Shown in pieces: positions 9,564-37,277 of a stretch of 38,253 nucleotides of DNA. The notes under the pieces were generated by a model. That model ran no database searches. It saw only the letters and a program-made list of their open reading frames with translations, and had not been told where the DNA came from. The first letter of the stretch is position 1. Every line of letters starts with the position of its first letter. This DNA is from a virus: the IMG/VR virus record IMGVR_UViG_3300023184_002195, positions 1 through 38,253 of that record; one strand, given 5' to 3'. Both the position numbers and the translations under genes were made by a program.

Positions 9564-10382
9564 CTATTCCAAAATCACTAATGGCACATGGATTGGAGCC
9601 TTGGCATTCATCGCAATGAAGAATGGTAGGAACCTTTCACCTAAAAATCCTGGATACCTCCAAGGCAGTGGTTCTGGTGTGGTCTGTTGTGTTGGATATG
9701 CTGTCTTGGCATATGTCCAAATGTACTCATAGATTTCAAACAACTCACTGACATACTTTTTAAACAATTGCTTACGCATGATGTAGCAAGTCTCAAAACT
9801 GATTTTATTACCGTTGAACCAATCTAGTTTATTACGATAGTCAGGTAACAATTCAGTAATTGCTTTTTCAAACAGTTCCCAATACTCAGCAGGTTGTGAC
9901 TGTAGATACTGGTCTTTGATTGAGAACGGCAAATGAGTTTGTATGTTAGTGATGACATCATGATTTTGAAGCATGTGCAATGCTGCATTTGCCATTCGAT
10001 CTGATGATAGATAGTCAGCATTTATTTGATTTGCTGCCATAGTAATCTTTGGTACTGCTTGTGTAATATCATCAAGTAATAAGTATCGACGATACGTTGT
10101 GCAACCAATGTAGTCTGTCTTACCATACTTCCACAGCCAATACTCGGATGCTTGTTGACCCATAGCTTTTAAAAAATCAAGTTCAGTTACACCACGATAG
10201 TGATGATGATATTCTTGAATTCGATTTGGTTCACGTGATGTGTTAATCCACACACCTTCTTTACTTGGTGGATAGTATTCATATGCTCCTGTACCACCAG
10301 CATATGCTGCTCTCATCCATGAAGAGTTATGATTAAATGGAAAGTCCTTGTGAAAGTGACTTAACATTAATAAATCATTCAT
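9564..10382 (-). CDS. DUF4422-type glycosyltransferase
   Basis: 272 residues. YIGCTTYRRYLLL (about 111-123) matches the 'YIGLxHYRRY' signature of DUF4422, and GFLGERFLPFF near the C-terminus matches the 'GFLSERLF' end of that domain. These are capsular or LPS-type glycosyltransferases. The start overlaps the 54-aa gene by 8 bases. It lies between the 2OG oxygenase and dCMP deaminase genes, unrelated in function, so it looks like an accessory insertion. It may glycosylate virion or host surface; the donor is unknown. A 55-base gap without a gene follows. Confidence 0.8.
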   Translation of the reverse strand: MNDLLMLSHFHKDFPFNHNSSWMRAAYAGGTGAYEYYPPSKEGVWINTSREPNRIQEYHHHYRGVTELDFLKAMGQQASEYWLWKYGKTDYIGCTTYRRYLLLDDITQAVPKITMAANQINADYLSSDRMANAALHMLQNHDVITNIQTHLPFSIKDQYLQSQPAEYWELFEKAITELLPDYRNKLDWFNGNKISFETCYIMRKQLFKKYVSELFEIYEYIWTYAKTAYPTQQTTPEPLPWRYPGFLGERFLPFFIAMNAKAPIHVPLVILE

Positions 10383-15542: not shown

Positions 15543-16223
15543 TTAAGCCTTTTCAAATTTGGAACCAGCTTCAGTTGCAACCCAATACTGAATGTTGGAA
15601 GTTTTATGTTTAAAGTGTGAGATTCCTTTAGAAGAAATCTTGACCTCATACCCACCAGAAATCATTTTAAAGTTTTCAGTTTTAAATATCATGCGATACT
15701 TATCACCATTACCTTTAGTAATCTGTAGAGAATCAGTGTGTTTAGAATCATCTGTCAAGTCTAATGTTGACACAAAAATCTCAGTGCCATCAGATTCAAC
15801 AACAATATGTGGTGACGATAAAACATTTGCTGCTCTCATGATCCAATCAAAATCTTCTGCTGATAATTCAAATACGATTTCAGGATCAGGAACAGCCAAT
15901 TGTTTTTCTGGTGGAACAGTAATCATACTAGGCGCACAGAAACGATACTTGATCTTGCTGCGACCTTTCATACCAGAGATAAGAACATTGTTATCTTGGA
16001 AGTCTAGGTTCGTATCATCTTTATGTAACGATAGGACAGTAAGAAAATTATTCAGATCAAATACACCAAACTCTGTTGGGATTTCTTCTGAAATTGTTGC
16101 TTCAGCCATCACATTCTTTTGGTTAGATACTGTACGAAGTGTCTTACCTTTTTTGAAGAGAATGCCTTGATTGATTGAAGCAAAGTTCTTCAATACAGTT
16201 AACGTGTCGTTGGACAGTTTCAT
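15543..16223 (-). CDS. 45: sliding clamp gp45
   Basis: 226 residues, the same size as T4 gp45 (228). MKLSNDTLTVLKNFASINQGILFKKGKTL is the typical clamp N-terminus, and the two-domain PCNA-like repeat follows (FGVFDLNNFLTVL, then VFELSAEDFDWIMRAANVL). The trimeric ring tethers gp43 to DNA and, with gp55, activates late promoters. It is followed by the 71-aa gene and later gp44 and gp62. A GGAG lies upstream of ATG 16223. Confidence 0.97.
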   Translation of the reverse strand: MKLSNDTLTVLKNFASINQGILFKKGKTLRTVSNQKNVMAEATISEEIPTEFGVFDLNNFLTVLSLHKDDTNLDFQDNNVLISGMKGRSKIKYRFCAPSMITVPPEKQLAVPDPEIVFELSAEDFDWIMRAANVLSSPHIVVESDGTEIFVSTLDLTDDSKHTDSLQITKGNGDKYRMIFKTENFKMISGGYEVKISSKGISHFKHKTSNIQYWVATEAGSKFEKA

Positions 16224-21063: not shown

Positions 21064-21633
21064 CTATTTACGAGTTCGTTGTATCTTTTTGATAATTTTT
21101 ACTTGCTTTTTCTTTGCCATTTGTAATGCTACTGGCTTAACATAGTTAGTAAAACGTATACCATTCAGGTGATCTAGTTCATGTAGGAAACATATCGCAC
21201 TCACACCCTGAAGTTTACCTTCTTTAACTACGCCAAACTCATCTATATATTCTACCTCAATCCATTCAGGTCTTTCGATACCCAAAAACAATCCAGGATA
21301 TGATAAGCATCCTTCTTTAGCTTTTATTTTTGTTTCCGATTGATTAACAACTTTAGGATTGATGCATGTCATTTGGAATTCGTCTGTACCAATAACAAAC
21401 ATTCTTTCAGAGACACCACATTGATTAGCAGACAGACCTAGACCAGCATATAGTTTCATGGTCATTCGCATACGCTTGGCTAACGTAACCAACGCTGGAT
21501 TAGGAAACTCACCAACGTATTCTGGCATAGCCTTTTGTAGCAGTGGAAAGTCTTCACCATAGATTGGTAGTTGATCAATCTTTTCTGTTGTCTGTATACC
21601 TGCACTGGTATCAATCGTTAATATCTCACTCAT
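21064..21633 (-). CDS. def: peptide deformylase
   Basis: 189 residues. The three family motifs are present: GLGLSANQ at 64-71 (Ser for the usual Ala), EGCLS at 107-111 and HELDH at 151-155, with Cys109 and both His as metal ligands. The C-terminal basic tail (KKKQVKIIKKIQRTRK) is an extra. The enzyme removes the formyl group from nascent proteins. Phage-encoded deformylases are known in T4-like cyanophages and are thought to favour phage protein maturation. The start overlaps the gp46 stop as ATGA, so it is translated with the recombination nuclease. Confidence 0.95.
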   Translation of the reverse strand: MSEILTIDTSAGIQTTEKIDQLPIYGEDFPLLQKAMPEYVGEFPNPALVTLAKRMRMTMKLYAGLGLSANQCGVSERMFVIGTDEFQMTCINPKVVNQSETKIKAKEGCLSYPGLFLGIERPEWIEVEYIDEFGVVKEGKLQGVSAICFLHELDHLNGIRFTNYVKPVALQMAKKKQVKIIKKIQRTRK

Positions 21634-24416: not shown

Positions 24417-24953
24417 CTATTCTACATCATCTTGAATAAAGTTTTCAAGTCCTTTTGCGGTTTTAGTCTTCTTTTTCTTCTTATTTTCTTCAAAGTTAAA
24501 GATAAACTCAGAGATGTTGTCATAAAGTTCAAACTGTTTCATGTTGCCGTTCTCATCTTCATACATCTCCCCCTCATCCAGTAGACCAAACTGTTGGGTG
24601 GCTTTATACTTTACATATAATTGTTTCTTCTCCCGCATGATCCTACGGAGAAAGGCATAATATATAATTTGGGTAAAGTAGGCAAATGGATTCTTGCTTT
24701 TACTTGGATCAAAGTTACGGAAATACATGATACAGTTCTCGACCCCATCAGATATCATCTCATCACGGTAAGTGTAGGAAATGAAGTTGGGTTTCCGCGA
24801 TAGGTGTTCCGCTATCTTTAGGAAACACTCGCCGATGTAATTGGGAATGTTGGGGTCTGGTTGGTTTTCCGCTTTTGCCTTGGCACAATCATCCCGATAT
24901 TGGATAAGAGCCACCAGAAAATCGGCGTTGTTTACATAATGATTAGATGCCAT
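24417..24953 (-). CDS. 55: late transcription sigma factor gp55
   Basis: 178 residues (T4: 185). YVNNADFLVALIQYRD, IAEHLSRKPNFISYTYRDEMISDGVENCI and FDPSKSKNPFAYFTQIIYYAFLRRI align with T4 gp55, the divergent sigma-family subunit that directs RNA polymerase to TATAAATA late promoters. The C-terminus GLENFIQDDVE after a Lys-rich linker resembles the short hydrophobic/acidic end of T4 gp55 (SLDFLYEAND), which binds the sliding clamp. The sequence before its start shows no clear own promoter on the minus strand. Confidence 0.95.
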   Translation of the reverse strand: MASNHYVNNADFLVALIQYRDDCAKAKAENQPDPNIPNYIGECFLKIAEHLSRKPNFISYTYRDEMISDGVENCIMYFRNFDPSKSKNPFAYFTQIIYYAFLRRIMREKKQLYVKYKATQQFGLLDEGEMYEDENGNMKQFELYDNISEFIFNFEENKKKKKTKTAKGLENFIQDDVE

Positions 24954-25030: not shown

Positions 25031-25966
25031 TTATATATTACCGTATATGTTATTCTTAATCATCTTATAACCTTTAAGTAATTCTTCAATACCAAAATCA
25101 AGATCGTACATTGGTTCAAAACCAGTAGCTTCTAACTTAGCATTAGAGACAATGTAGTTCCGCTGATCAGGGTCTTTCTTAATCTCACCTTCCACAACAG
25201 TAAAATTAGGAACATGTTTCTTAATTACTTCACACAGTTCCAGCTTAGAAACATTAGCAGTTGAAAGTCCTACGTTGTAGATTTCACCCTTCATCGTATT
25301 GAAGTTATAAATTGCATGGATGAAAGCATCACACACATCACGGACATGGATGTAGTTACGTTTAAAATGTCCTTCAAAGATAATTACATAACCATCATTG
25401 ACAGCACGGTAAGTTAAATCATTTACCAACAAATCAGTACGCATACGTGGAGACATACCAAACACAGTAGCCAAACGGTAACTGATCGAGTTCTCACGTT
25501 GCATCAACATCTCTTCTACCTTAACTTTATCTATAGCATACTTGGAGATAGGATTAAGCGGAGACTCTTCAGTACAGAAATTATTCTCATCACCTGAACC
25601 ATATGCTGAATTGGTAGTAGGCATAATGATTCTTTGTTCTTTAGATACTTTATCCAGCATCATAAAGATTGCTTCTTTGTTTGTAGTATCTGCACCAACA
25701 ATATCTTTATTACAAAGAGGTGCACCCACTAAAGCAGCCAAAGGAATAATCACATCAGCATCTTTTAACAAAGGTTGAATGTGAGCCATGTTACGGATGT
25801 CACCGTTGACTACATTAAATCCAGACCTAGAACAAAGATGATTCAGGCTGGATTGTTTATACATAAAGTTGTCGAGTACAGTTACTTTAAATCCTAAATC
25901 CAAAAGAAATTCTGTTAAGATAGAACCAATGTATCCTGCACCACCTGTCACTAAAATGTTTTCCAT
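25031..25966 (-). CDS. NAD-dependent sugar-nucleotide epimerase/dehydratase (extended SDR)
   Basis: 311 residues. The NAD-binding GGAGYIG is at 8-14, and the catalytic Y143xxxK147 sits in SKYAIDK. MPTTNSAYGSG and the RNYIHVRDVCDAFIHAI segment are typical of NDP-sugar epimerases or dehydratases. It is the last gene of the sugar cassette, following the ColD-like enzyme by one base. It would change the configuration or reduce a keto group of an activated sugar; the exact reaction is not readable. Confidence 0.92.
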   Translation of the reverse strand: MENILVTGGAGYIGSILTEFLLDLGFKVTVLDNFMYKQSSLNHLCSRSGFNVVNGDIRNMAHIQPLLKDADVIIPLAALVGAPLCNKDIVGADTTNKEAIFMMLDKVSKEQRIIMPTTNSAYGSGDENNFCTEESPLNPISKYAIDKVKVEEMLMQRENSISYRLATVFGMSPRMRTDLLVNDLTYRAVNDGYVIIFEGHFKRNYIHVRDVCDAFIHAIYNFNTMKGEIYNVGLSTANVSKLELCEVIKKHVPNFTVVEGEIKKDPDQRNYIVSNAKLEATGFEPMYDLDFGIEELLKGYKMIKNNIYGNI

Positions 25967-25967
25967 G

Positions 25968-27143
25968 TTATACCTTATTCAATACGTCAGTTATTTCTTT
26001 GATTGCAATCTTAGATAATGTTGGATAGTTACCCACATAGAAACTATAAAAATGCATGTGATCTGTGTTAGGATAATTCTTGTAATGATCTTCAGGAACA
26101 ATACCTTTTAGATATGGTTGACGAAGTTGATTACCACCACCAGCAGAACCACGACGAAACTCAATCTCATTATCACGCATCTTATTCATCAACCTTTGAA
26201 CAAACTCTTTGTTTGCATACTCAGGTTGTAGAACAATATTGAATGCATAGTTACTGCAACCAACTAAACGAAAATCTACTTTGTATTTCTTTTGATCTAA
26301 TTTAGATAAAAATTCGAATAGATTTTCATTACGAATCTTAACATTTTGATCAAGGTATTTCAACTGATTCTGTCCTAAAATCCCACCTATTTCTGTGTTG
26401 CGTACATTGTATGCAGCAAACGCAAAGATGAATTCTGGATTCAATTCTGGATATACTTTCTGATAGTTCTTTATCATCGGTTCCGAACCACATTCACGCA
26501 CCATACCATGTGAACGAAGCATACGAATTGTGTGATAAACATTCTCATCGTTGGTACACACCATACCACCTTCAATCGTAGACATATGATGAGCAAAGTA
26601 GAATGAGAAGTTAGACATCCACCCCCACGAACCTAACAATTTACCATTATGTGTAGCACCATGTGACTCACACACATCTTCAATTAATGGAATGTTTCTG
26701 TTTAATAATTCAGTTACAAGTTTATCGGATAGGCAATCAAAGCCTTGTGCATAGGTAATAAACACAGCACGTGTCTTGTCCGTAATAGCGTCAATGATCT
26801 TATCAGTGTTCATGCCAAGAGTATCTAAATCGATATCTACAAATACAGGAGTGAAACCACATTGAATGATGGAAGCAATGTCTGATACCCATGTGAATGG
26901 TGGTACAATAACTTCACCGCCTTCTGGATGTTTGATCTTGAGCATAGCCATCGAAAGAAGATTAGCTGAAGCACCTGAGTTGACAAACACAGAATACTTT
27001 ACACCTAACCATTTGCTCCATGCCTCTTCAAAAGCACGGCATTCTGGACCGTTAGTTAGTTTGGGATTGTCTTTCTTTAGATGTTCGATTACCAAATCTA
27101 AATCTTCTCTGGAAATATTGTCACTCATCAATGGGTACTTCAT
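25968..27143 (-). CDS. DegT/ColD-type PLP enzyme with His in place of catalytic Lys (sugar 3-dehydrase)
   Basis: 391 residues from ATG 27143, which has GAGG six bases upstream. PLP-binding segments of the DegT/DnrJ/EryC1/StrS family are present: VNSGASANLL, EDVCESHGA, and SFYFAHHMSTIEGG at 180-193. In aminotransferases the sixth residue of the last motif is the Lys that binds PLP; here it is His185. His at this position is known in ColD and in the RfbH/E1 3-dehydrases, which use PMP to remove the C3 hydroxyl of a 4-keto-6-deoxy sugar. The product would be a 3,6-dideoxy-4-keto sugar. The substrate nucleotide (GDP or CDP) is not determined. Confidence 0.9.
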   Translation of the reverse strand: MKYPLMSDNISREDLDLVIEHLKKDNPKLTNGPECRAFEEAWSKWLGVKYSVFVNSGASANLLSMAMLKIKHPEGGEVIVPPFTWVSDIASIIQCGFTPVFVDIDLDTLGMNTDKIIDAITDKTRAVFITYAQGFDCLSDKLVTELLNRNIPLIEDVCESHGATHNGKLLGSWGWMSNFSFYFAHHMSTIEGGMVCTNDENVYHTIRMLRSHGMVRECGSEPMIKNYQKVYPELNPEFIFAFAAYNVRNTEIGGILGQNQLKYLDQNVKIRNENLFEFLSKLDQKKYKVDFRLVGCSNYAFNIVLQPEYANKEFVQRLMNKMRDNEIEFRRGSAGGGNQLRQPYLKGIVPEDHYKNYPNTDHMHFYSFYVGNYPTLSKIAIKEITDVLNKV

Positions 27144-27145
27144 AA

Positions 27146-27682
27146 TCACCTCATAATAATTTTGGAACCCTCATAGTCAAAACTGAACGGTATCCATACG
27201 TTAATTTGTTTTAATGCATCTTTAATCTTTTGATGTGCATCTGGTGGTGCAAGGAACATAAAGAAACCACCACCACCTGCTCCCATCAATTTGCCGCCGT
27301 ATGCTCCCGCTTGTATTGCAGCATCGTATATACTATTTATGTTGCTATTTGAGACGCTATCTGTGAGAGTCTTTTTATAGTTCCACTGCTCTTGCAGTAG
27401 CAGACCTATATCTTTGATTGAAGAACTGGATTCGTGCTCGAATACTCTGAGTGCTTCAAGGGTAAGTTTTTGCATAGCCTCAAGCGTTTGAACTGACTTA
27501 CCTTCTTTGATGGAGTCAACTTGTTTCTTTGCTTGAACTTCAGATAGTCTACTGATGCCAGAAAATCCTAACATAATATGTTGTTCTAAATCTTCAACAT
27601 AATGATCAGGTATTCTTAGATCACGAACTTTAGTATTAGCACCAGACAATTCAAGAACTTTAATGCCACCATATGCTGCCAT
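27146..27682 (-). CDS. GHMP sugar kinase, C-terminal fragment (frameshifted gene)
   Basis: This frame holds the C-terminal GHMP domain: KLMGAGGGGFFMFL is kinase motif 3. The same frame can be read upstream to about 27722 as IIGESVGVQDQIMAA, the segment that normally follows 'IDIxR' in heptose-type GHMP kinases. It therefore belongs to the gene at 27700-28134, and the ATG used here is not an authentic start. A single missing A would explain the break. It is either a broken gene, an assembly error or a translational frameshift. Confidence 0.75.
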   Translation of the reverse strand: MAAYGGIKVLELSGANTKVRDLRIPDHYVEDLEQHIMLGFSGISRLSEVQAKKQVDSIKEGKSVQTLEAMQKLTLEALRVFEHESSSSIKDIGLLLQEQWNYKKTLTDSVSNSNINSIYDAAIQAGAYGGKLMGAGGGGFFMFLAPPDAHQKIKDALKQINVWIPFSFDYEGSKIIMR

Positions 27683-31791: not shown

Positions 31792-33253
31792 CTTTGACCT
31801 CTATGTTGTAGAATTTATATTTGAACTTTTCTTCATCATATATTTTAACTCTTTCAATGAAGTGTTTCAATGTAAAATTCACATGCTTACCTACACGAAA
31901 ATCATCTGCAATATCAAACAGTACAGCTTCCTTTTTATTGTCACCTATTCTAAGTCCACGACCAATTGATTGTAAGTTACGTACTCTGGATTTGCTTGGA
32001 GAAGCAAAGATAACGTTGTGTAAGTTTCTAATATTGACACCAGTACTAAAAGTACCATAAGACGCAACAATAATTGCATTGTTTTCTTTCTCCGTAATCT
32101 CTCTAACTGACTCACGAATCTCTACATCAGTACCACCATAGACAAAAAATACATGGCGGTTTTTTGCCTTCTCAGCGATCATAGAATGTAATTGTTTACC
32201 ATGTTTCTCAACCAACTGAAACAGTACTAAAGAATTACCCTCTAAGGATAGAACTAGATTACGAATGAACTCATTTCTTTGCTTGCTTCTTACTATATAT
32301 CCTATCTCATTTAGATAGTCCCACGACTTAGATTCTTTACAAATAGCCTCAGAGTATTTTAGAACCAGGCATTTGATTCTGAAATCTGCCAACTGTTTAT
32401 TCTCAATTAGTTCAGATGTAGTTGTGGATTTAAATACCGGACCAAACAATCCTTCCAGAACTAACTTGTGGGTCTGTGTACCATCCAATGTTCCTGTACA
32501 ACCAATACGATATGATGCATTGGTCAACCCTGTCATAATCGTAGTCAAAGACTTGGCTTTGAATAGATGAGCCTCATCCCCAAATACAAAATCAAACTGT
32601 TCAAAATATTCTGTGGGATTCTTATAGATAGATTGCCAAGTTGTTATGGTCAGAAACTTGTCAGAATCTTTATCTTTACCGGAGTATTGACGATGACAGA
32701 ACTTATCAGAATCGTAACCGTAGTCTTTAAAGTCTTTGAACATCTGCTCAACCAAAGATGTTGTCGGAACAATAAGCAATCCTTTTTTGTGTTCTTGTTG
32801 TTGCAGATACCGAAGTATGATATATTGAATCAATGATTTGCCTGATGCCGTTGGTGATACCAACATCATTCTTTTCTCACGAACTGCACGGACAAATGCT
32901 TTTAATTGATAGTCTCTGACCTCATGTGGGAGAGATAATGAATCAACAAACTGTTGTGCTTCAACCAAAGAAAAATTTTCGGTGCAACTAATCTTTGAAT
33001 CTATTTCTATTTTATAGTTTCGTTCCTCACAGAACTGTTGTATGTAAGGAACGACACCATGATAAATGGTAAAATATTTTAGATTAAATAATCTTATTTT
33101 CCCGTCCCATACTTTGGATTTATATTGCGGCATAAATTGATAACCAGGAACATAAAATTCAAAGTATGAAGATAGTTCTTGTGCTATACTTCTTTCACAA
33201 ACACAATGTATAAAAGCTTCATTTTTTTTATGTAATATTATATCTGGTTGCAT
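31784..33253 (-). CDS. uvsW: recombination helicase UvsW
   Basis: 489 residues (T4: 503). Walker A SPTASGKS is at 133-140, the DEAH box at 226-229 (FGDEAHLFKA), and motif VI IGRGLRIGDNKKEAVLFDI near the C-terminus. UvsW is a superfamily 2 helicase that remodels recombination intermediates and unwinds R-loops, shutting off origin replication late. Its start overlaps the endonuclease-like gene by 26 bases. Directly upstream is ATTTAAATA, a late-promoter-like sequence, in line with T4 uvsW being a late gene. No Shine-Dalgarno is seen. Confidence 0.95.
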   Translation of the reverse strand: MQPDIILHKKNEAFIHCVCERSIAQELSSYFEFYVPGYQFMPQYKSKVWDGKIRLFNLKYFTIYHGVVPYIQQFCEERNYKIEIDSKISCTENFSLVEAQQFVDSLSLPHEVRDYQLKAFVRAVREKRMMLVSPTASGKSLIQYIILRYLQQQEHKKGLLIVPTTSLVEQMFKDFKDYGYDSDKFCHRQYSGKDKDSDKFLTITTWQSIYKNPTEYFEQFDFVFGDEAHLFKAKSLTTIMTGLTNASYRIGCTGTLDGTQTHKLVLEGLFGPVFKSTTTSELIENKQLADFRIKCLVLKYSEAICKESKSWDYLNEIGYIVRSKQRNEFIRNLVLSLEGNSLVLFQLVEKHGKQLHSMIAEKAKNRHVFFVYGGTDVEIRESVREITEKENNAIIVASYGTFSTGVNIRNLHNVIFASPSKSRVRNLQSIGRGLRIGDNKKEAVLFDIADDFRVGKHVNFTLKHFIERVKIYDEEKFKYKFYNIEVKDA

Positions 33254-33644
33254 GTTTACAATTATTTAAATGCCATCGGTTTAAATTACCAATATTTGTT
33301 TTCTTCTTACAATGAGGGCATTCATAAATTAACTTATTAGTTTTTGCCATAGATTCTTTTCGCCATTCACTGTCGTAACCTTTTTTAACATAATTATTAA
33401 TTAGCCATCTATCTTTGTAATCGGGATTATTTTTTCTCCAATTTTCCCAATATTCTTTTTTTATTTTTGATTGATTTGGATTAGAAACGCCCTTATTCCA
33501 AGCTTCTTGTAGACCTTTTTTTCCTTTATTGGGTGGTGGAATAAATTTACTATATTCTAAAGTAGATACATTTAATGGATTGTTCTTACACCACGCAGTG
33601 ATACTAATGACGAATTCGTTATTTGCGTCTGAATAAATAGACAT
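33228..33644 (-). CDS. homing-endonuclease-like DNA-binding protein (NUMOD-type), no nuclease motif seen
   Basis: 138 residues from ATG 33644 (AAGGA upstream); a longer frame to 33701 would run through a hairpin. AWCKNNPLNVSTLEYSKF resembles a NUMOD1 helix, and PPPNKGKKGLQEAWNKG looks like NUMOD3. The C-terminal YECPHCKKKTNIGNLNRWHLNNCK in pieces forms a Cys2-His-Cys zinc finger common in phage homing endonucleases. I see neither an HNH nor a GIY-YIG catalytic core, so it is probably a reduced or partner-dependent remnant. It sits between uvsY and uvsW, which are adjacent in T4, and has its own late promoter. Confidence 0.75.
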   Translation of the reverse strand: MSIYSDANNEFVISITAWCKNNPLNVSTLEYSKFIPPPNKGKKGLQEAWNKGVSNPNQSKIKKEYWENWRKNNPDYKDRWLINNYVKKGYDSEWRKESMAKTNKLIYECPHCKKKTNIGNLNRWHLNNCKHATRYNIT

Positions 33645-33669
33645 GCTGACATTCCTTTGCAATGTTAGA

Positions 33670-33699
33670 GTATGTGAGGGCTGCAACCCTGCGACATAC
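33670..33699 (-). other. hairpin in the leader of the endonuclease-like gene
   Basis: Arms GTATGT / ACATAC (6 bp) enclose AGGG / CCCT (4 bp) with a small internal loop. It lies between the TATAAATA late promoter and the AAGGA ribosome-binding site, so it could block read-through translation or terminate the uvsY transcript. Confidence 0.5.
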
Positions 33700-33702
33700 A
33701 CC

Positions 33703-33710
33703 TATTTATA
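33703..33710 (-). promoter_or_regulatory. T4-type late promoter motif TATAAATA
   Basis: An exact TATAAATA on the minus strand, 5 bases after the uvsY stop codon. The predicted start, near 33697, gives a leader of about 53 bases to the endonuclease-like gene and then uvsW. Confidence 0.6.
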
Positions 33711-34167: not shown

Positions 34168-34196
34168 AGTTTATCACATAGTTTTTATTTTGTCAA
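34168..34196 (-). promoter_or_regulatory. sigma70-type promoter TTGACA-17-TAAACT for uvsY
   Basis: TTGACA (34196-34191) overlaps the stop codon of the tail-tube-like gene, and TAAACT (34173-34168) lies 17 bases on. The -10 matches four of six bases. The leader ends with AGGAGG before the uvsY ATG. Confidence 0.6.
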
Positions 34197-34741
34197 GTAC
34201 TTTTTATTAATTTTTCTACATTAAAATAGGTAAACCTAAATGTAGCGTCTGCGGTGATGACTGTATCTGGACTGTCTGTTGCACTAATTGTGAAACCAGA
34301 CAAAGATATTGGGAAAAGATCAATGAAATTAATCTTAAAGTAGGGAACGTTTGATGCAGATAATAGTGTTACTGAACCATCAGAATACTGTGGCAGTGAA
34401 GACTTAGCTGCGACAGTAAACTTATTTAAGTTACCTAAGTTTTTATACTCTTCATATTCTGTTGGGAATGTCAAGGCACGTAACCAATCATGAACCTCCA
34501 ACCAAGCTTTCAATTCCATGTCTACCAAGAATGTAATGTTCAAGGTATCATAGATTGCTTTTTCACCTGGGGCATACAACTCTACAAAAGGATTGTTTAC
34601 CGGAATCTCAGATGTAGAGAGACCAGGTAACGTAATCATCTGGCAGAAGTATTGTATGTTTGGAATCCTAGAGAAGTTCAACTGAAACTTGTTCGGTTGA
34701 TACATGTTAGGATTGGATGGATTTCTATTGAGTGCTGTCAT
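34193..34741 (-). CDS. tail-tube-family structural protein
   Basis: 182 residues from ATG 34741; the upstream GTG at 34771 lies within a terminator stem and would translate the promoter, so I reject it. The sequence has YQPNKFQLNFSRIPNIQYFCQMITLPG at the N-terminus, the pattern 'FxVxFxRIPxxxYxCxxxxLPG' seen in T4 gp19/gp54-like tail-tube proteins, then LNITFLVDMELKAWLEVHDWLRAL and a beta-rich end. It is therefore a tube or tube-initiator-type virion protein. It follows gp23 with its own late promoter, whose predicted start coincides with the ATG. Which T4 protein it replaces is unclear. Confidence 0.75.
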   Translation of the reverse strand: MTALNRNPSNPNMYQPNKFQLNFSRIPNIQYFCQMITLPGLSTSEIPVNNPFVELYAPGEKAIYDTLNITFLVDMELKAWLEVHDWLRALTFPTEYEEYKNLGNLNKFTVAAKSSLPQYSDGSVTLLSASNVPYFKINFIDLFPISLSGFTISATDSPDTVITADATFRFTYFNVEKLIKST

Positions 34742-34746
34742 ATGTG

Positions 34747-34754
34747 TATTTATA
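34747..34754 (-). promoter_or_regulatory. T4-type late promoter motif TATAAATA (leaderless arrangement)
   Basis: TATAAATA is followed by CACAT and then the ATG of the tail-tube gene. If transcription starts six bases after the motif, the mRNA begins at the A of ATG 34741. No Shine-Dalgarno is present. Confidence 0.65.
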
Positions 34755-34757
34755 AGC

Positions 34758-34785
34758 AAAAAAAGAGACACCCGAAGGTGTCTCT
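34758..34785 (-). terminator. rho-independent terminator after the capsid gene
   Basis: The 9-bp stem AGAGACACC / GGTGTCTCT has a TTCG loop and is followed by seven T on the minus strand. It lies 30 bases after the gp23 stop and ends the capsid transcript. Confidence 0.93.
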
Positions 34786-34814
34786 CTAAAGTCCACTCTT
34801 AACGGTGGTTTAAT

Positions 34815-36158
34815 TTACATCAAGTTGGCAATACGGAATGCACGGTAGTAGTTATTCAACTGTGTATTCAGTGCGCCAAGACCTTGACCTGTACCTTCAG
34901 CAAAAGGATTAGCAACCAGACCGTAACGAGTCTTGAAGCCGATCTTAGGCTGGAATGTACCAGTGTCAACAGCACGAACCATTTGCAGAGGAACGTATGG
35001 GCAGTAGAAAATACCTGCGTCATAAGCATTCGTACCTTTGTAACCAACAACAGCAAACTCGGAAGTTGAGCCAGTTGGGAAGTATGGATCGATGTAGACT
35101 TTGATACGACCAAAGATAGTACCAGCAAATGTGTTGCCAGTATCATCAACAGTCAACGATACTTGACCTTGCAGAGCCGATTGATAATCGAGAATGCCAG
35201 CCATTGCCAGTGCAGATGCAACATCCGATGAACACATCATGATGTTACCTTTGCCACGACGAGTCAGCTTGGCGATTTGATTAGCTTCACGCTCAATTTG
35301 GAACGCCAAACCTTTGATCTTTTCAACCATCCAACGACCATTTGAGTCGGTGTCAAGGTTAAACACACCAGCAGTAGTTGTACCAGCTTGTGCGCCAGGC
35401 TTTGCTACTTTGTAGATTGTACGGATAACTTCACGGTTGATCTCAGCCAGAATTTCAGCAGACAAAATGTTTGCCAATTCAGTCTCAGCGTCCAGACCGT
35501 GAACTGCTTTCAAGTCTTGTGCAAGTTCCATCGAGTATTCAGCTTTCAAAGCACGTGTACGTGCAGTGACAGTTACTTTCTCGATTGAGAATGCCATTTC
35601 TTGGAATGTGTTACCAGCAGCACCGTCACCCAAGGCTTCAGCGGAACCAGTTGTCATTGCGCCAGTAGGAGCAGCGTTACCTGTGAACAGATAGTCGGTG
35701 GTGTTACCAGCAACAGTCATGCTCGAAGCAACGATAGCACCGTTAGCACCAGAGAATGCAGTGTTAGCTTCGTTGTAGAAAGCTTCAGTACCACCTTGCG
35801 ATGCATACTTAGTACGCATTGCGAAGATCAGACCAGTAGGACCTGTCATTGGCTGAACGCCGCAAACGTCATACGCAATCAGATTAGGCAATGAACGACG
35901 AACCAAACTGATAAGGATTGGATCGAAACCAGCAACAGGGCCAGCAGCAGCAGCACCGCCACCGAAACCACCTGTACCAGCAAAGTTAGTTGGGGAACCT
36001 GCTTCGTGCAGAATACCAGCTTCTTTCATCATCTCTTGAGCTTGGTTCTCAAGAATGACAGCGGTAACAGCTTTACGATAGGGGTCTTTAATAGGAGCCA
36101 AGTCTGGATGATCCAGAACCGATGCCCACTTTTGTTGTGTATGTTCAGACAAATACAT
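34815..36158 (-). CDS. 23: major capsid protein gp23
   Basis: 447 residues. The N-terminal propeptide (KWASVLDHPDLAPIKDPYRKAVTAVILENQ) is followed by LHE at 50-52 before AGSPTNFAG, a likely cut site for the gp21-type protease (after L/I-x-E). The following FDPILISLVRRSLPNLIAYDVCGVQPMTGPTGLIFAMRTKY is the hallmark gp23 segment used for environmental surveys. RBS GGAG precedes ATG 36158. A late-promoter-like TTTAAATA lies 16 bases upstream, and a strong terminator follows. Confidence 0.98.
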   Translation of the reverse strand: MYLSEHTQQKWASVLDHPDLAPIKDPYRKAVTAVILENQAQEMMKEAGILHEAGSPTNFAGTGGFGGGAAAAGPVAGFDPILISLVRRSLPNLIAYDVCGVQPMTGPTGLIFAMRTKYASQGGTEAFYNEANTAFSGANGAIVASSMTVAGNTTDYLFTGNAAPTGAMTTGSAEALGDGAAGNTFQEMAFSIEKVTVTARTRALKAEYSMELAQDLKAVHGLDAETELANILSAEILAEINREVIRTIYKVAKPGAQAGTTTAGVFNLDTDSNGRWMVEKIKGLAFQIEREANQIAKLTRRGKGNIMMCSSDVASALAMAGILDYQSALQGQVSLTVDDTGNTFAGTIFGRIKVYIDPYFPTGSTSEFAVVGYKGTNAYDAGIFYCPYVPLQMVRAVDTGTFQPKIGFKTRYGLVANPFAEGTGQGLGALNTQLNNYYRAFRIANLM

Positions 36159-37269: not shown

Positions 37270-37277
37270 TATTTATA
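37270..37277 (-). promoter_or_regulatory. T4-type late promoter motif TATAAATA upstream of gp22
   Basis: An exact TATAAATA on the minus strand between gp21 and gp22. The predicted start leaves a leader of about 17 bases with AAGGAG before ATG 37247. Confidence 0.65.

Follow-up and report, generated by a model that had tools for sequence, protein, structure and literature searches.

Late transcription in bacteriophage T4 is a textbook system, and all T4 late-type boxes examined leave room in the leader for a ribosome-binding site. In the window, i.e. the whole stretch of 38,253 nucleotides of viral DNA analysed here (IMG/VR record IMGVR_UViG_3300023184_002195), a box of this type lies so close to an ATG that the question arises whether the late message begins on the start codon itself.

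Results

The minus-strand sequence of the window at this site is ...AGAGACACCTTCGGGTGTCTCTTTTTTTGCT-TATAAATA-CACAT-ATG ACA GCA..., comprising a T4-type late promoter box TATAAATA (NATAAATA; 34747..34754), a 5-nt spacer (34742..34746), fixed in length and variable in its letters among relatives, and the start codon (34739..34741). The 16-mer TATAAATA-CACAT-ATG (34754-34739) is unique in the whole record. T4 late promoters depend on gp55, gp33 and gp45 and carry TATAAATA at -13 to -6 (PMC1524935). Applied to the site, this published geometry places the spacer at -5 to -1 and the predicted +1 on the A of the ATG, at 34741, a prediction that draws also on the invariant box-to-ATG spacing described below. 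No Shine-Dalgarno (SD) sequence was found between box and ATG, and an Rfam search of the window matched no RNA family. The upstream neighbour, the SD-led major capsid gene gp23 (34815..36158, minus strand), stops 73 nt upstream, and between the two lies a strong intrinsic terminator (34757..34787, minus strand; 11-bp stem, UUCG loop, U-run; MFE -17 kcal/mol, z -5.5). The initial annotation, which had described the box, spacer and ATG, a +1 on the A by T4 spacing, the lack of an SD and a terminator just upstream, was borne out on each of these points.

The downstream gene (34193..34741, minus strand; 182 aa) had been named a tail-tube gene in that annotation, and its family, PHROG_45, indeed carries the label 'tail tube'. 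The gene order gp21-gp22-gp23-X-uvsY-(..)-uvsW is common to the window, cyanophages and pelagiphages, and the gene at position X, between gp23 and uvsY, is annotated gp3, tail completion/sheath stabiliser, in cyanophages and in the pelagiphage HTVC008M. Because synteny identifies X as gp3, we replace the earlier name despite the PHROG label: the gene is most plausibly gp3-like (tail completion/terminator) and not the gp19 tail tube, and both its sequence family and the order gp23-gp3-uvsY-uvsW fit this assignment. Six copies of gp3 are present per T4 tail. Codon conservation is raised, to 0.81, in the last gp3 codons (34193-34230, minus strand), perhaps reflecting an overlapping signal for downstream uvsY.

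The window has four exact TATAAATA sites; each precedes an ORF and lies on the coding strand, here the minus strand. The one before gp22 (37270-37277) is followed by an SD leader (AAGGAGA) with 22 nt to the ATG, a spacing identical across the clade contigs examined, and that before a 90-aa ORF (1970-2242) lies at 2260-2267, with an SD leader (AGGAG) and 17 nt to the ATG. A second exact box at 5 nt was seen at 33644-33710 (minus strand; TATAAATA-GGTGT-ATG); its ATG opens only a 10-codon ORF, an HNH-like ORF (33228-33644, minus strand) starts ~50 nt beyond, and the element is possibly a leaderless mini-ORF or the leader of a homing-endonuclease-like gene. Boxes with one mismatch occurred at chance level in the AT-rich window (75 observed, 74 expected), and the argument is therefore built on comparison rather than on the match by itself. 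The window encodes the late sigma factor gp55 (24417..24953, minus strand; PHROG_234, E 3.2e-61), the trans-acting factor of the late promoter, as well as the sliding clamp gp45 (15543..16223, minus strand; PHROG_223, E 2.3e-69), the late-transcription activator in T4, which gives it known trans-factors for late transcription. It also carries a phage-encoded peptide deformylase (21064-21633, minus strand) and, between uvsW and gp55, an aminotransferase and nucleotide-sugar epimerase pair (25031-27149, minus strand).

Comparison of the promoter-ATG distance in related phages, which the initial annotation had suggested as a check, gave an invariant 5 nt at gp3. In the close clade, (T/C)ATAAATA-N5-ATG was found in 21/21 IMG/VR relatives (69-96% identity) for which the DNA upstream is available; the box was TATAAATA or CATAAATA throughout, and the spacers (CACAT, TAGGT, TACGT, GACGT, AAGGT, AACGT, GAGAT and AAGAT) were always 5 nt long. 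In L011, L016 and L017 the terminator is swapped for an unrelated one with the 5-nt gap intact, and the terminator-to-box distance varies among close relatives. A distant pelagiphage-like group (28% protein identity) displayed xTAAATA-N5-ATG in 78/78 evaluable loci, i.e. those whose contig extends upstream of the gene; 76 of them were scored directly, the other two being L118 and L121, for which the match as listed started 15 nt into the gene, and some of the contigs are near-duplicates. Among cultured phages, the gp3 genes of the pelagiphages HTVC008M and Mosig are preceded by ACTAAATA-GTAAT-ATG and, with a terminator of its own in front, GATAAATA-TTAGT-ATG, respectively. The non-cyanobacterial methylophage Melnitz has kept TATAAATA-GTAGT-ATG, but the start annotated for its gp3 lies about 18 nt farther on, with the SD AAAGGG in front. 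The cyanophages inspected had no N5-ATG at gp3, other genes usually lying between gp23 and gp3; T4 gp3 has an SD and no adjoining box; and TAAATA-N5-ATG is wholly absent from Sinorhizobium phage phiM12. A gp23 tree, which bears on ancestry versus convergence as the origin of the trait, set the window clade apart and left the deep branches without resolution.

The spacing was then evaluated genome-wide by measuring how far the ATG of each ORF-called gene lies from the closest N(A/C)TAAATA box upstream of it, with a uniform gap over 0-45 nt as the binomial null. Exactly 5 nt separated box and ATG in 11/22 box-preceded genes of HTVC008M (p 3e-13), 6/30 of Mosig (p 4e-5), 3/30 of Melnitz (p 0.03) and 13/24 of four pelagiphage-like contigs (p 5e-16), while the corresponding values were 0/26 for T4 (smallest gap 12) and 0/23 for cyanophage Syn9 (smallest gap 15). 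This spike coincides exactly with the T4 +1 offset in the -13 to -6 geometry (PMC1524935). The HTVC008M starts that were checked (6280, 7562, 11972, 16007, 18916, 18943, 19456, 31132, 49760 and 75830) are the deposited CDS starts, and the genes include gp2, gp3, gp4, gp25 and the tail tape measure gene. A similar membrane-like protein has N5-ATG in both HTVC008M (11972, plus strand; L151), where it is annotated adenylate/guanylyl cyclase, and Melnitz (53573, plus strand; L161). In the window's clade the gap is 5 nt at gp3 and 4 nt at gp25 and gp2 in both large contigs (respectively 34545, plus, and 29684, minus, of G004 in L033; 11283, plus, and 4331, minus, of G018 in L675, the G018 names coming from N-terminal similarity to scanned G004 proteins), so that a start shifted by 1 nt would be needed for these two genes.

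Next, the IMG/VR collection was searched with the pattern TATAAATA-GTANT-ATG. In-frame stops occur in the N4 and N6 patterns but not in N5; a scrambled-box N5 control was therefore added together with a filter for start-like ORFs (at least 60 aa long and preceded by an in-frame stop no more than 25 codons upstream). The test compares ORF fractions among the matches listed, not abundances. Among these matches a start-like ORF followed in 85/117 cases (73%) for N5, compared to 42/117 (36%) for N6, 38/119 (32%) for N4 and 22/111 (20%) for the scrambled box. The 102 N5 proteins among the matches listed fell into 40 groups, the largest being gp3 (19), the DNA end protector gp2 (19), gp25 (7) and a head-tail adaptor (5), with neck, tube cap, portal and terminase further represented. 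As GTANT is a pelagiphage-type spacer, the sample leans to the pelagiphage group.

Genes at N5 share several hallmarks of leaderless messages. In eight genomes or contigs their start codon was ATG in all 24 cases (0 GTG, 0 TTG). An SD-like core preceded 2/24 genes at 5 nt, as against 42/56 genes whose box lies at least 15 nt away (HTVC008M 6/6, Mosig 11/19, Melnitz 15/21, G004 10/10). The first 40 nt of gp3 were unstructured in 17/17 sequences (mean -0.7 kcal/mol, versus -4.0 kcal/mol within the gene), with 0 kcal/mol for the 5' end of the window's gp3, although ordinary genes, too, often have A-rich 5' codons and starts free of structure. A preference of the initiator for ATG at +1 that has nothing to do with translation was ruled out as the source of N5-ATG, since just 3/97 SD-led late promoters have an ATG at +1.

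Discussion

We consider it probable, from the sequence comparisons above, that a late promoter of the gp55/gp45 type has its start point on the A of the gp3 AUG and gives rise to a leaderless late message. The initial annotation had proposed such a message; the spacing comparison supports the proposal, leaderlessness itself being deduced from position. It further expected leaderless structural genes to be unusual among T4-like phages, which is true of T4 and Syn9, where no box-preceded gene lies at 5 nt, but not of pelagiphages, in which the arrangement is common.

The alternative that survives best, albeit an unlikely one, accepts the late promoter as real and lets transcription start further upstream, or gp3 be expressed mainly by gp23 read-through, so that the ATG of a leadered mRNA is reached via 70S scanning, coupling or A/U-rich non-SD initiation. 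No terminator works with full efficiency, translational coupling is frequent in compact phage genomes, and some pelagiphage-like upstream genes seem to stop inside the box (e.g. GAT AAA TAG). Yet the end of gp23 and the ATG of gp3 are separated by 73 nt and a strong terminator, genes of these genomes with a more distant box are mostly SD-led, and coupling or read-through would not fix the gap at 5 nt across groups with different upstream genes and terminators. Still less probable is a gp3 start at an internal Met13, which would leave a leader of about 36 nt: Met13 is present in the window and several relatives, but L018-L022 and the pelagiphage-like group keep N5-ATG without it, no SD precedes it, and codon identity is raised to 0.76 over the first 12 codons after the upstream ATG, compared to about 0.5-0.64 mid-gene. 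Chance or shared ancestry, i.e. an AT-rich octamer near one start codon inherited by close relatives, accords with the chance level of one-mismatch boxes and with the common descent of those relatives, but is scarcely credible, given that spacing stays constant while spacer letters and terminators change, that the 5-nt spike recurs in many unrelated genes of distant phages, and that scrambled and shifted controls fail.

Under the leaderless reading, RNA polymerase of the gp55 type would begin on the A of the AUG, and ribosomes, probably as 70S, would take the 5'-terminal AUG without an SD. The terminator would shield gp3 from the message of gp23, which is very abundant, thereby giving this low-copy tail terminator its own, separately controlled message; terminator read-through or an upstream promoter could add some leadered gp3 message. 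The same design would serve the recurrent late genes gp2, gp3, gp25, neck, tube cap and portal, and it appears to be used across a large group of non-cyanobacterial marine T4-like phages. The recurrent N5 genes encode mostly low-copy parts, and gp22 and gp23 in the window are SD-led; we infer a dosage rationale in which low-copy late parts would be leaderless and high-copy ones SD-led.

Genes for ribosomal protein bS21 were found in HTVC008M (91237-91392; L672), Mosig (9983-10132; L673) and Melnitz (34209-34367; L674), and the cultured phages with bS21 are those with N5-ATG late genes; the gene is absent in T4 and Syn9, and none was found in the fragments of the window's clade. bS21 is a core gene of pelagimyophages and not of cyanomyophages (PMC7029224). 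We regard a link between bS21 and the N5-ATG class as a lead only. A broader proposal, tentative and in our judgement rather doubtful, is that a large marine T4-like lineage combines a leaderless late class of low-copy virion parts with host ribosomes retuned by the phage late in infection, with a phage-encoded bS21 possibly taking part in pelagiphages; the combination would act as a stoichiometry switch apart from the SD-led, high-copy gp22 and gp23.

If the leaderless reading is true, one 16-bp element merges the choice of transcription start with that of translation start, gene after gene. Late-promoter prediction failed in pelagimyophages (PMC7029224), for which the N5-ATG layout may account, and the Melnitz paper lists late promoters with their spacing unremarked (PMC9004378). 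Neither of these two papers mentions leaderless late genes, nor did we find literature on such genes in T4-like phages or pelagiphages in a search of mostly non-subscription papers. The N5-ATG rule would aid start annotation of many marine phage genes, and the lineage would offer a natural test bed for the competition of leaderless mRNAs late in infection, including the role of phage bS21; the cultured HTVC008M and Mosig make the leaderless late reading directly testable.

With the T4 late promoter the arrangement shares the box, the gp55 and gp45 genes of the window, and, at gp22, the use of the box with a normal SD leader; in contrast to T4 and Syn9, where at least 12 nt separate box and ATG, the predicted +1 in the window is the start codon. 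Leaderless mRNAs are common in Mycobacterium and Deinococcus, and the phage example in a review of them is lambda cI, a single regulatory gene (PMC9031893). A predicted 5'-terminal AUG, the lack of an SD, exclusive use of ATG and an unstructured 5' end are the points of likeness to them, while, unlike lambda cI, the genes concerned here form a class of late structural genes that recurs, and a phage sigma factor is predicted to drive them. The pelagimyophages HTVC008M and Mosig (PMC7029224) have the same gp3 arrangement and several N5-ATG late genes, and methylophage Melnitz (PMC9004378) likewise has several N5-ATG late genes, whereas by gp23 the phage of the window belongs to a separate clade. 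The T4 late promoter and the leaderless mRNA are each known, and their regular combination in T4-like late genes is one for which we found no description. Together, the same exact spacing in uncultured and SAR11-infecting marine relatives, and not in T4, points to an undescribed mode of starting late proteins, best read as a lineage-wide variant in which gp55-dependent late promoters would produce leaderless mRNAs.
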